Source of the DNA: Thermoplasma sp. Kam2015
GTDB lineage: Archaea > Thermoplasmatota > Thermoplasmata > Thermoplasmatales > Thermoplasmataceae
Length of the DNA: 64,000 nt
Direction: 5' to 3'
Assembly: GCF_003205235.1 (NCBI RefSeq)
Contig: NZ_QJSM01000018.1
Location: 124,001-188,000, forward strand
Shown: positions 57,941 to 63,209 of the stretch, piece after piece
Numbering within the stretch: the stretch's first letter is position 1
Layout of the letters: every line of letters starts with the position of its first letter
Notes under the pieces: model-generated
Databases searched by the model: none
Told to the model about the DNA's origin: nothing
The model's input: the letters and a program-made list of their open reading frames with translations, nothing else
Translations under genes and position numbers: made by a program

Positions 57941-58080
57941 GGATCGTATCTTTACTTCTTACAATGATCAACGGCATATCATAAAGGATCCTTTTGATTT
58001 TTGTTCCAGAAATTAAGCTCAACAGCTGATCAGGAAAAAATATTTCATATCAGGTTATATAGATAGAGAGGTAAAGAGTC

Positions 58081-59106
58081 ATGGATGTACCTGCATACTG
58101 TATCGGCTGCGGTAGAAAACGAAAGGGCGATGAGCTGAGATGCCCTGCCTGTGGTTCCCTGTTTGAGATACGCCCAGAATTTCGATATCATGATAAGATT
58201 GAATATAATTTCCCATATCTACGGAATGTCATTTCTTTAGGGGAATCTGAAACTCCCGTATTTCAAGCCGATGGCTTCAGCTTGAAGCTTGACTATATGC
58301 TTCCAACATTCTCATACAAGGACAGAGGATCAAAGATACTTATTTCTCATATAGTTGATATAAGAGATTCTGAGAACATCTCGAAGATCTCTGAGGATTC
58401 TTCTGGAAATGCTGGAGCATCGATAGCAGCTTATGGATCTGCTGCTGGATTTTCTGTGGAAATATATGTTCCAGAAACAGTTGCCGGAAAAAAATTCTGG
58501 CAGATACAGGCCTATGGAGCAAGGGTAATAAAGATAGCGGGTAGCAGAGAGGACGTCCAGGCAGCGGCGGAGAGATCAGGATCATTTTATGCAAGTCATG
58601 TTCTCAGGCCTGAGTTCAGGGATGGCATAAGAACACTTGCATATGAGATATACAGGCAGTTCGATAAAATGCCAGAAAACATATATGTGCCCGTCTCAGC
58701 CGGAACGTTATTGCTGGGTCTATTCTCAGGATTAAATCATCTTAAGGAAGCCGGAGAGATAACAAGTATGCCCAAGATAATCGCCGTTCAGACCGAAGCA
58801 GTTTCCCCATTGTGCGCTAGAATGAACGGCACAAGGTACGATCCGGATAACACATTGAAATCCGTAGCAGATGCACTGGTTTCTAAAAGGCCGCCACTTC
58901 TGGAAAGGATGCATTCGGTTGTATCAGAAAATGGCAGGTGCATAACCGTGAATGATGGGGAGATAATAGATGCAAGAAACGATCTTGCAAGAAAGGGATT
59001 CCTTGTTGAATATAGCTCTGCAACGGTGTTCGCGGCGTTTAAGAAGAAAAGATTGAACAACAGCCTGTTGATCCTCACTGGGTCTGGGCTGAAGAACGAT
59101 TTTTGA
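58081..59106 (+). CDS. thrC: Threonine synthase-like PLP enzyme (341 aa)
   Basis: Fold type II PLP enzyme converting O-phosphohomoserine to threonine. It starts with the zinc-finger-like CIGCGRK and CPACGSL typical of archaeal threonine synthases, then PTFSYKDRGSK with the PLP Lys near 83, SEDSSGNAGASIAAYG, and the glycine loop VSAGTLLLG. It is shorter than most (about 400 aa), with tight loops. It would use the product of the homoserine kinase gene at 24-25 kb. It overlaps the opposite-strand gene at 59075 by 32 nt. Confidence 0.86.
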   Translation: MDVPAYCIGCGRKRKGDELRCPACGSLFEIRPEFRYHDKIEYNFPYLRNVISLGESETPVFQADGFSLKLDYMLPTFSYKDRGSKILISHIVDIRDSENISKISEDSSGNAGASIAAYGSAAGFSVEIYVPETVAGKKFWQIQAYGARVIKIAGSREDVQAAAERSGSFYASHVLRPEFRDGIRTLAYEIYRQFDKMPENIYVPVSAGTLLLGLFSGLNHLKEAGEITSMPKIIAVQTEAVSPLCARMNGTRYDPDNTLKSVADALVSKRPPLLERMHSVVSENGRCITVNDGEIIDARNDLARKGFLVEYSSATVFAAFKKKRLNNSLLILTGSGLKNDF

Positions 59107-59455
59107 TCCGCTCCTTACGTTCTCTTTTTAACCTCTCTATTCTTTCCTTTTCCTCACGCACTCTAATTGCCTGCCCAACGAATTCTCCCTCGTTAGTCAG
59201 TATGATCTTTTCTCCGAGTCTTTCTTTATCCTCGGCGACAAAGCCATAATCTATGAGATTCTTGAGTGTACCATCAGGATCTTTCACGCCACTCTCGTTT
59301 TTGACTCTGTAAAGCGGAACCTTCCCGCCATGGTTCTTTATGAACATCAATAGCTTAACTTCATCTTCTGACATATCATAGTTGTTTTCCAGCTTTCCCT
59401 TTATCACAGGTTTGTTGAAGGGAGAACCTTTAACCAGCACCTTAGACTCAGCCAT
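59075..59455 (-). CDS. Small winged-helix-like basic protein (126 aa)
   Basis: Not a known family. Residues 25-90 look like a winged helix (DMSEDEVKLLMFIKNHGG, LKNLIDYGFVAED, GEKIILTNEGEFV), and the last 30 residues are a strongly basic helix (RLKRERKERIKNR). This is the build of small archaeal DNA-binding proteins. It converges with thrC and overlaps it by 32 nt. Confidence 0.6.
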   Translation of the reverse strand: MAESKVLVKGSPFNKPVIKGKLENNYDMSEDEVKLLMFIKNHGGKVPLYRVKNESGVKDPDGTLKNLIDYGFVAEDKERLGEKIILTNEGEFVGQAIRVREEKERIERLKRERKERIKNRSSAQTQ

Positions 59456-59518
59456 TCATACCGCCCCCATATATACATTTAGAGTATCGTGATCGATGAT
59501 GCTATATGGATCGCCTTA

Positions 59519-59832
59519 TCGTTACTCCTCAGCTGAAGCTTCGGAGCTTCCTGCTTCAACGATCAAACTCGATCCCCCTACTGCCAGATCGCAGTTTCCC
59601 GTCATTGGAAACTTTCTTTCGGACCACGTCTGGAAGAAGGGTTACGGAGGTTGCGATCTCCACAGGCGTGTATTCGGATCTCATCGATCCCACTCAAGTA
59701 TCATCCACTTGTTTATCGTGAATGATACAAAAGAATATGGTAAGACCATCTATAAATATTTCCATTGGGGGATGTCTGTGCATCTCCTGTCCGAAGGAGG
59801 AGAATTACTGCTTCTCCCAAATCACTAAGCTC
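59519..59832 (-). mobile_element. Short IS605-derived non-autonomous element (about 314 bp)
   Basis: Right end GTTACTCCTCAGCTGAAGCT at about 59521 with the hairpin GAAGCT-TCGG-AGCTTC; left end CCCAAATCACTAAGCTCT ending near 59832. Inside are blocks shared with 1-207 and 26318-26580, including a hairpin built from GTATCAT and ATGATAC with TTATCGTGAATGATACAAAA. It has no gene. It is directly joined, left end to right end, to the tnpB element that follows, so it lies exactly where the guide segment of that element's omega RNA would be. Confidence 0.72.
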
Positions 59833-61177
59833 TCTGTGAGCTACTCCTCAGCTGAAGCATCGGAGCTTCCTGATTCAACGACCGACCTCTGCCTGTACGG
59901 ATATATTCCGTACAAGCCCGATGTTGCGATCTCCACAGGCGTAAGTTCGGACTGCACTAGCCCTACTTTTATCAATCCTATTTTCCTTATGTTCTTTGAT
60001 GCGTTGTGATCCCTGTCTATGATGAGACCACATACATCACAATGATATATGCGATCTGATAACTTCAGATCATGCTTTACGTTACCGCATGATGAACATA
60101 TCTTAGATGATGGATCGAACCTTCCTATCTCTATTATATTCTTTCCATATTTTTCTGCTTTCCATTCCAGTTTCTGCTTGAAGGAATAGAAAGAAACATC
60201 ACTTAGACTCTTCGATATATGATGGTTCTGCATCATTCCATGTACGTTGAAGTCTTCGATGACTATGGTATCGTACTGCTTGGCTATCGCAGTCGATATT
60301 TTATCATCGAAGTCTTCACGCATGTTTCTCAGCTTCATGTACTCCTTCTGTAATTTAAGTATATGCTTCCTTCTATTCTTCGATCCTTTCTGCTTTCTTG
60401 ATAACTGTTTTTGAAGACGCTTTATTCTTTTCTCTACCTTCTTTATGAATCCTGGATTCTCTATTGCTATACCATTCGATAAGGTTGCAAATTTTTCGAT
60501 GCCTAGATCTATACCAACGGAGTTCTCTTCAGATAATGGCTTCTTCTCTGGTAGTTCTTCCTCATTTTCATATATAATAGAGCAGTAGTAATAACCTGAA
60601 TCCTTGGTTATTACTATCTCGTTGATGTCTTTAATCTCGGACAGCTTCTTCTCAGAGCCCTTGAAGTATATGCCTTCAGAGAACTTTGGGAAATATATAC
60701 TGTTTCCTCGAATTTTGATGTGCTGTGGTACTGCAAAGAATTCGTTGATACCTTTCTTTTTGAATTTAGGATGTTCAGTATTCTTATGGAAGAAGTTCTT
60801 GAATGCATTGTCTAAGAAACTAGGGACATCTGTAAGGATTGTGAGTTTATTTCATACAGCCATGGATATTCCTTCTTTAGATCGATGATCATGTTCTGTG
60901 TGTCCAGATAGCTCAATGAAGATTTCTCCGCATCCCTATGCGTTATATAGTATTCATCCCTCTTCGCTAAGAAGTAATTGTATACGAATCTACAGCTGCC
61001 AAAGTGCTTTTCCAGTAAAATTTTTCTGTCTTTCATTTGGATACAGCTTCACTCTGGCAGCTGTTATCATTGTCTATAGATATTATATCATCATATTAGC
61101 CTTTCCTTTGGGGGAAGTTCGTGTATCTCATCGCTAAAGCTGTTGAGATTTACAGCTTCCCCCAAACCCCTAACTTC
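59833..61177 (-). mobile_element. IS605/IS1341-family element with a broken tnpB (about 1.35 kb)
   Basis: The right end is at about 59833-59875 (GCTACTCCTCAGCTGAAGCA hairpin) and the left end at about 61105-61177, where GGGGGAAG and CTTCCCCC (on the minus strand) form the subterminal stem enclosing GCTGT...ACAGC. Only tnpB is present; no Y1 transposase (tnpA) gene is seen. A perfect 8-bp hairpin with arms TGTACGGA/TCCGTACA at about 59893-59913 lies in the probable omega-RNA region at the 3' end of tnpB. Confidence 0.75.
59841..61070 (-). pseudogene. tnpB: TnpB (RNA-guided nuclease) pseudogene with two frameshifts
   Basis: Read from ATG 61070, the N-terminus VKLYPNERQK is in one frame, then shifts at the T5/A5 run at 61021-61025 into LLEKHFGSCRFVYNYFLAKR. 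A second shift at 60811-60825 (stop TAG at 60812) leads into DNAFKNFFHKN, and from there the frame stays open to 59841. The catalytic residues are intact: RuvC-I Asp in SVGIDLGIEKFATL, Glu in IVIEDFNV, zinc finger CSSCGN...CDVC and RuvC-III Asp in IDRDHNASKNI. It would be about 410 aa if repaired. The 3' end overlaps the omega-RNA and the right end. Confidence 0.85.
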
Positions 61178-61374
61178 TTTTTTAAATTGGCGGATAATGA
61201 TTTGATCTTTATCAATATATCAAGCTTAGAGAAAGGAGAATATGCTTCAACCAAAAAATAGCGGACTAAATCGCATCCTGCAGATGATCCCTCGGTATGA
61301 GAATAATCCTGGTCTATGCTGATAGATACCTCCATGGATCATCTTTAATATGTGATTTTGAGCGATTCCAGCAC

Positions 61375-61713
61375 TCAAAAATAGCCAAGTCGGTGTCTGA
61401 TGATCGGTACGGATGACTGATGTGAACTACCCCGCCCTCGGGGCAGTCCAGATCCCGTACGATGAATATTTAAAGAAGTATCATAATCACGGTTTGCAGT
61501 CCAACCGCATTTATGACATGAGAATATACAGTCTGATAAAGTTAGATCTTTCTTTACATAACAGCATCTAGCACATGTCTTTGAAGTGTTCCTCGGATCT
61601 ACTTTCACTACCATCCTAACAGCGCTACTAGCCTTGTAGGGGAGGTAGATCATAAACTTGGAGAAGTTGGAGTGAAGGAGATGCTTTCTCAAAATGAAAC
61701 ACGTAGCTGGCAA
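61375..61713 (-). pseudogene. C-terminal remnant of a second TnpB
   Basis: Carries only the end of a Tnp[17 protein letters not shown], then [25 protein letters not shown], i.e. the zinc finger and RuvC-III Asp. The RuvC-I half and N-terminus are missing. It is a different branch from the 59.8-kb TnpB (finger spacing and SLNI end). The hairpin CCCCG-CCCT-CGGGG (61430-61443) followed by the GTAGTTCAC motif on the minus strand, usual at the right end/omega RNA of archaeal IS605 elements, is kept. The first 20 residues before [12 protein letters not shown] are not TnpB. Confidence 0.75.
61430..61443 (-). repeat. Right-end/omega-RNA hairpin of the second TnpB remnant
   Basis: Arms CCCCG and CGGGG around CCCT form a perfect stem; on the minus strand it is followed by the GTAGTTCACATCAGTC context common at TnpB element ends. 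Confidence 0.55.
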
Positions 61714-61755
61714 CTTGAAAATTCTTAATGAAAATGCGTCCTATGTGAATACTGT

Positions 61756-62244
61756 TCATTCCTTCATTGTTTCATATATTATATGGTCGATCAGTTCAAG
61801 TATCAAGTCCGCACCTATATCCTGCGCTTTGGGAGAACCCGGAAGGGAGAAAACTGGTTTTCCAAAGATTATAAAGAGATCCGCCGATGACAGATAAGCG
61901 AAGATTCCAGCCTGCCCCTCGCTTCTCCTCCGGAAAATTTCCCCGAAGCCAGCCACCTGTTTTTCGGCAACCTTTCTCAAGGTTGTTGAAGTAACATCAT
62001 ATCTGCTTACGCCGGTCCCCCCATTATAGACGAAAACATCATACTCGCCAAAGTCAACGAACAGCTCAGACAGTATCTGTACCGGATCATCTTTAACCAG
62101 CGATCTCTTCACCCTGTAATCTTTGAATCGTTCAGCAAGTATGTTTCCGGACTCATCCGTTTCCATGGTCCTTGTGCTGGATACAGTGATGATTTTTATT
62201 CTTAAATCGTAGTGCCTTTCACCATGATGATCCCTCTGTTCCAT
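61756..62244 (-). CDS. moaB: Molybdenum cofactor biosynthesis protein MoaB/MogA family (162 aa)
   Basis: Adenylyltransferase-like protein of molybdopterin activation. Typical blocks are IITVSSTRTMETDESG near 18-33, VYNGGTGVSRYDVTSTTL near 72-89 (the GGTGxxxxDVT signature), RRSEGQAGIFAYLSSAD and PVFSLPGSPKA. In archaea MoaB carries out the adenylylation of molybdopterin needed for Mo or W insertion. The moaC gene lies 530 nt away on the other strand, with a TnpB remnant between them. Confidence 0.92.
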   Translation of the reverse strand: MEQRDHHGERHYDLRIKIITVSSTRTMETDESGNILAERFKDYRVKRSLVKDDPVQILSELFVDFGEYDVFVYNGGTGVSRYDVTSTTLRKVAEKQVAGFGEIFRRRSEGQAGIFAYLSSADLFIIFGKPVFSLPGSPKAQDIGADLILELIDHIIYETMKE

Positions 62245-62315
62245 GTATTAGTAATAGTTTAGTATCGATATCTATCTTTGCTTCATTCGGTAATGAACTA
62301 CCGTTCCTGAAATAC

Positions 62316-62329
62316 TATGCATTATTATG
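62316..62329 (+). repeat. Left arm of a 14-bp inverted repeat around the TnpB remnant
   Basis: TATGCATTATTATG here pairs perfectly with CATAATAATGCATA at 62647-62660. The two arms enclose the 62315-62683 remnant. Confidence 0.7.
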
Positions 62330-62646
62330 CATTTCTTTCTTGCAGTCATTGGCATCCTCAACAATTACTTGATCTGGATGGTACAAGTAATCATTCTTCA
62401 TATAATGCCAAGAGGAACTGCTACTCACGGTAAACGGGGTACCGCAGAGGTCTAATCCACGGATAGAAATGGATAACGATGATAATCTATTCCTATCGTA
62501 GGTTAAACCACAGCTATTGCATTTGGATGCTTTCCAGATTGGGTGCTCTAATCTTCCACCACATACAGGACATTCAGAAGAAGTCCCCTCTGGGTCTATA
62601 TACAATGTTTTATTATTTGTTGTGTATATTTTACTCATATATATTA

Positions 62647-62660
62647 CATAATAATGCATA
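62647..62660 (-). repeat. Right arm of the 14-bp inverted repeat
   Basis: CATAATAATGCATA, exact reverse complement of 62316-62329. Confidence 0.7.
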
Positions 62661-62696
62661 ACTATATATATAAATATTTCCATTAAAAGTTAAAAC

Positions 62697-62746
62697 CCTT
62701 CCCTTACGGAAGAGGACTTTCGCCCCTTTAACCCCCGCACGTTAAA
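62697..62746. other. GC-rich structured block upstream of moaC
   Basis: Two adjacent hairpins: CTTCC/GGAAG (62698-62702 with 62708-62712) and TTTAAC/GTTAAA (62727-62732 with 62741-62746), in an otherwise AT-rich spacer. It may be an end of the neighbouring TnpB element (its sequence resembles omega-RNA-type CGAAAGTCC motifs on the minus strand) or a leader of moaC. Confidence 0.45.
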
Positions 62747-62777
62747 GAGTTAAATCCGATGAAAATATACTGGACCA

Positions 62778-63209
62778 ATGATAAATATATCAAAAAAGGG
62801 TATAAGCATCAGAACAGCTACAGCCATCGGAAGAATACATCTCAGGAAATCAACGATCAAGGCAATAATAGACCATAATGTGAAAAAGGGGGACGTATTT
62901 GAGGTGAGCCGCGTCGTGGGGACGCAGCATGCAAAGAATACATTTCTAAATATACCGTATTGTCATAATATACCGATTGAGGGAGTGGATGTAGATTTCA
63001 AAACGGGTGAGGATTATATTGAAGTTTCATGCACGCTGACGACAACTTACAAGACGGGCATAGAAATGGAGGCCATTAACTGTGTCTCAGGAGCACTGCT
63101 AAATATTTGGGACATGGTTAAGTATCTTGAAAAAGACGAAACCGGCAATTATCCTGAAACAAAAATTGAAAACATCCGCGTGCTGGAAAAGAAGAAGAAT
63201 TCCCTATAA
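62778..63209 (+). CDS. moaC: Cyclic pyranopterin monophosphate synthase MoaC (143 aa)
   Basis: Second step of molybdenum/tungsten cofactor synthesis, after MoaA. Conserved MoaC blocks are VVGTQHAKNTFLNIPYCHNIPI near 45-66, with the catalytic Lys and His region, and YKTGIEMEAINCVSGALLNIWDM near 96-118. GAAAATATACT at about 62760 with the ATG at 62778 suggests a short or leaderless mRNA. The N-terminus (MINISKKGISIRTATA) is normal for the archaeal form. Confidence 0.94.
   Translation: MINISKKGISIRTATAIGRIHLRKSTIKAIIDHNVKKGDVFEVSRVVGTQHAKNTFLNIPYCHNIPIEGVDVDFKTGEDYIEVSCTLTTTYKTGIEMEAINCVSGALLNIWDMVKYLEKDETGNYPETKIENIRVLEKKKNSL

Follow-up and report, generated by a model that had tools for sequence, protein, structure and literature searches.

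A tnpB element joined end to end to a short tnpB-less relative in Thermoplasma, probably by insertion at the relative's TAM

In the genome of Thermoplasma sp. Kam2015, the right end (RE) of a tnpB element meets the left end (LE) of a short, tnpB-less relative, so that this LE occupies the position from which a TnpB guide is taken. The stretch analysed, here called the window, comprises 64,000 nt of contig NZ_QJSM01000018.1 (positions 124,001 to 188,000); all coordinates refer to it, and both elements are read on the minus strand. The last base of the tnpB-element RE is 59836 and the first base of the short-element LE is 59835. The observation is confirmed and precise, and its explanation is simple: with a probability of roughly 85%, an older tnpB-less relative was in place first, and an IS200/IS605-type solo-tnpB element then used the relative's TAM for insertion.

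The borders rest on 67 copies of the RE, about 58 copies of the LE and empty alleles in a sister species, the copies within the genome having been gathered by pattern and by region. Across 59836 and 59835 the minus strand reads ...GAGGAGTAGCTCAC/AGAGAGCTTAGTGATTTGGGAGAAGC..., where the slash marks the border. The RE motif AGGAGTAGCTCAC has 67 matches in the genome at no more than one mismatch, compared with one match for the reversed control, and the DNA 3' of it varies between copies. The LE consensus consists of about six purines plus GTTAGGRGTTTGRGGGAAGC, in which the purines are followed by GTTAGG, and the TAM (TTTAA, TTTAT or a near variant) stands directly 5' of the LE in the other copies. 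The outer limits, TAM/ and GCTCAC/, were set by contiguous empty alleles that the sister genome G060 holds for three other copies, whose joined flanks leave a gap of 0 or 1 nt. The cleanest of these, at locus L112, reads GATTAT/AGATCC when empty and GATTAT/A(7)GTTAGG...GCTCAC/AGATCC when occupied, with an ambiguity of one A. LE flanks and empty alleles show that the family inserts 3' of a short fixed motif and without target duplication. Together, the RE copies, the LE copies and the G060 alleles fix the borders in such a way that the two elements abut with 0 nt between them, and the 16-20 nt at the TnpB guide position are therefore the LE of a relative. The junction, GCTCAC/AGAGAGCTTAG, is thus an exact abutment of RE and LE, and it lacks a TAM. 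This bears out the original prediction that the two ends meet directly, without other DNA between them, and that, by position, a related short element would provide its LE as the guide. The limits it gave for the short element need a small correction, as the LE starts at 59835 rather than 59832 and the length is about 315 nt rather than 314 bp.

The tnpB element (59836-61181, about 1,346 nt) has consensus ends, its borders being transferred from the empty alleles of other copies, and is directly preceded by TTTAA at 61182-61186, in line with the TTTAA or TTTAT found 5' of most LE copies. Its tnpB frame is broken into a 5' part of 78 codons (60812-61048), which matches HTH_OrfB_IS605, and a 3' part of 336 codons (59841-60851), which matches OrfB_IS605 and Cas12f1-like_TNB, the two open frames overlapping at 60812-60851. 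Jointly they hold the HTH, OrfB_IS605 and TNB domains of TnpB, and the last two of these are the TnpB domains that characterize the IS200/IS605 type. With its tnpB frameshifted in this way, the composite is probably in decay. Intact TnpB relatives of 409 aa are present elsewhere in the genome and are 89-93% identical over the compared part, and a scan of public genomes with the tnpB alignment returned a single relative, in a Thermoplasmata MAG. No tnpA adjoins the tnpB element, and the single Y1 transposase of the genome belongs to a different tnpA-tnpB element. The tnpB-element LE contains a subterminal imperfect hairpin (61107-61166; DNA fold z = -4.4), while the tnpB-element RE and most short LEs fold no better than shuffled sequences. 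Since the folding of other short copies is no better, the idea that a decayed LE hairpin marks the short element as immobile was abandoned.

The short element (59521-59835) was delimited by relatives of 86-98% identity and by comparison with G060 and locus L002. It lacks a transposase gene, has both ends in common with the tnpB element and belongs to a set of several copies, as is characteristic of PATE-type derivatives. Its RE, which ends at about 59521, is without four nucleotides (GAGTA, a gap of four, then AC) that G060 keeps. G060 carries the short element too, bordered by the same right-hand sequence (94% identity over 1.8 kb) but not by a tnpB element. Since G060 has the short element alone and the RE in the window has lost four bases, the short element probably predates the tnpB element here, as judged from these sequences. 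Its left flank in G060 is different because a segment has moved in that genome, so that G060 does not offer a clean pre-insertion allele. The segment matching window positions 58001-59821 is parted from its neighbours in that genome (G060:C5:1-1933 and G060:C9:54934-56366), and a piece of the family RE at the start of that contig suggests a rearrangement through repeats.

Genome-wide, the family falls into size classes of about 213, 269, 320 and 1,345 nt with both ends in common (for example L005, L011 and L058), and one 63-bp copy consists only of the termini, its LE being fused to the RE with nothing between (L101 1900-1962; G000:C17:20299-20361). At the LE flanks the TAM and the first base of the element form TTTATA or TTTAAA, which resembles an archaeal TATA box; the insertions may have host promoters immediately upstream and be expressed from these. 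Two further TnpB-derived sequences are found close to the tandem. Just upstream of the tnpB element, 61375-61713 is a C-terminal remnant of a different TnpB with a TNB domain, and the minus strand after it, GGGGTAGTTCAC, resembles the RE motif of the studied family. Positions 62293-62741 form a 449-bp insertion relative to G060, where the blocks 61441-62292 and 62742-62998 are contiguous, and show no target duplication. A TNB-domain fragment within it and partial copies of 97-98% identity on several other contigs mark it, by its sequence, as a further TnpB-derived element that was mobile recently.

The insertion point of IS200/IS605 elements lies just 3' of a short motif, which is retained as the left flank, and a donor-joint model has been described for them (PMC8612924); TTTAA and TTTAT are the reported TAM of archaeal TnpB elements (PMC10640517). 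Insertion just 3' of the TAM means that each resident copy presents TAM/LE and is itself a TAM site. The starting state would have been TTTAA/LE-short...RE-short, and a tnpB element entering 3' of the same TTTAA would have produced TTTAA/LE-tnpB...RE/LE-short...RE-short. As both elements would use the same TTTAA, RE and LE would abut automatically, and the TTTAA at 61182-61186 was in all likelihood originally the TAM of the short element. The nested insertion is supported by GCTCAC, which is not a TAM, in front of the short-element LE, and by TTTAA in front of the tnpB-element LE. We infer the order of the two insertions from these features. Two points speak against this reading: no tnpA adjoins the tnpB element, and a clean pre-insertion allele TTTAA/LE-short at this place was found neither in G060 nor in a search of the genus. 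The pre-insertion LE AGAGAGCTTAGTGATTTGGG, searched across the genus, has an exact match in this copy only.

An identical order LE-RE-LE-RE would result if the short element had arrived second, directly 3' of the tnpB-element RE, or if the pair were mobile as one composite unit. We think this very unlikely, as GCTCAC would be needed as a TAM and precedes no other LE, the junction is present once in the genome, and the short element looks older and occurs in G060 without tnpB. It could also be asked whether a mis-assembly or a homologous exchange between copies fused RE to LE, given that the 1.79-Mb genome is in 63 contigs, several of which end in family copies, and that G060 is rearranged at this element. 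The genes that flank the tandem (59075-59455 and 61756-62244) are however adjacent in two congeners, with about 230 bp between them, which makes a mis-assembly unlikely, and neither homologous exchange nor a random join would be expected to give a border with single-nucleotide precision, so that an artefact of this kind is hardly credible.

The tandem was predicted to be an unusual arrangement, and it is indeed rare: of the 147 REs counted in four genomes of the genus, one shows it, and no other RE/LE junction (at most two mismatches) was found across 77 genomes of the taxonomic family. Chance nevertheless accounts for it, since about 0.19 such events are expected in this genome, based on about 60 copies and about 9,370 TTTAW sites as extrapolated from the 64-kb window. 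As the guide matches no other copy exactly, the tandem is probably an ordinary accident.

With the nested insertion as the preferred reading, the question is what RNA the tandem would produce. Both RE regions contain an omega-RNA-like segment with a RAGATH-18 core, at 59836-59940, where it overlaps the end of tnpB, and at 59548-59666 in the short element, although their scores of 26.2 and 23.7 bits lie below the Rfam gathering score of 44.9. The 5' box of the segment is present at 52 of the 67 REs, mainly at those of short elements. The covariation analysis neither supported nor denied a structure: 42 mixed copies gave a trivial consensus and nine copies of a 151-nt class were nearly invariant. 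Most short copies retain the segment without tnpB and could, to judge from this retention, supply guides in trans to intact TnpB copies.

An omega-RNA from the tnpB-element RE would carry the short-element LE as its guide; the predicted guide, AGAGAGCTTAGTGATTTGGG, corresponds to the first 20 nt of this LE (59816-59835), directly 3' of the RE. Because the TAM lies directly 5' of the LE in other copies, this site would in principle be open to cleavage with a matching guide. The original prediction was that the RNA could be directed to left ends throughout the family; this is mostly unsupported by the comparison with all LEs, as no other LE has an exact match over 10, 12 or 16 nt. The nearest LE, C37:27862, adjoins TTTAA and has two mismatches in 20 (guide positions 7 and 12), the next few, C26:136133 among them, have three, and most have at least four (4-7), several of them within the seed. 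An exact 10-nt seed in common with another copy is found in 69% of LEs and is missing from the short-element LE.

Functional targeting of the element's own family would require that the RE omega-RNA loads intact TnpB made elsewhere and cleaves TAM/LE of family copies, altering their spread or loss. The guide position falls exactly on an LE, intact 409-aa copies exist and C37:27862 is a near match, but the local tnpB is frameshifted and the remaining LEs diverge as described, and we regard such targeting as improbable. Mismatch tolerance differs between systems: SisTnpB1, with a seed of +1 to +10, tolerates single changes outside +1 (PMC10640517), whereas a single mismatch within positions 1-13 impairs a RAGATH-18 TnpB (PMC11061315). 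A weak activity on the nearest copies, in trans from intact TnpB, is therefore possible, and one on the whole family is not. The one exact target expected from this analysis is the element's own donor joint TTTAA/LE-short, which tnpB-element excision would leave and which would be an ordinary TnpB target in its usual donor-joint role. The suggested bearing on the persistence of short copies found no link in the data.

Among known systems, the tandem resembles the solo-tnpB IS200/IS605-type (IS1341-type) elements of Sulfolobus islandicus, the SisTnpB group, in the TTTAA or TTTAT TAM directly before the LE, the conserved RE followed by variable DNA and the omega-RNA segment at the tnpB 3' end, and differs from them in that a relative's LE follows the RE and tnpB is frameshifted (PMC10640517). 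In the part consulted of the account of Haloquadratum walsbyi PATEs there are likewise many tnpB-less derivatives with both ends in common, copies reduced to the termini (52 bp, against 63 bp here) and IS605-type elements nested in one another; that part mentions no guides and no insertion placed precisely at another copy's TAM (PMC3119063). The CCUGUGGAG...CGUUGAAnCAGGAA core matches RAGATH-18 RNAs of IS607 TnpB, but the score is below the gathering threshold, the RNA segment and the end of the tnpB coding sequence overlap, and TTTAW takes the place of AGGAG or GAGGG as the TAM (PMC11061315). Membership in IS607, considered because of RAGATH-18 and of serine recombinases in the genome, was rejected, as the TAM and the overlap of RNA and coding sequence differ from that description.

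A more far-reaching scenario is that insertion at a relative's TAM creates a family-directed guide with which intact TnpB in trans would cut near-matching TAM/LE sites, tandems surviving only with a diverged guide or a dead tnpB, both of which apply to the present case. We consider it doubtful at best; survival by divergence is consistent with a guide outside the 69% of seed-sharing LEs, in a single case for which a non-matching LE would be met by chance in 31%. Although this one decayed tandem itself shows no such targeting, a resident under TAM-directed insertion always presents TAM/LE, so that a second insertion would make the relative's left end the guide, which amounts to a testable prediction on self-targeting in TnpB-rich genomes.
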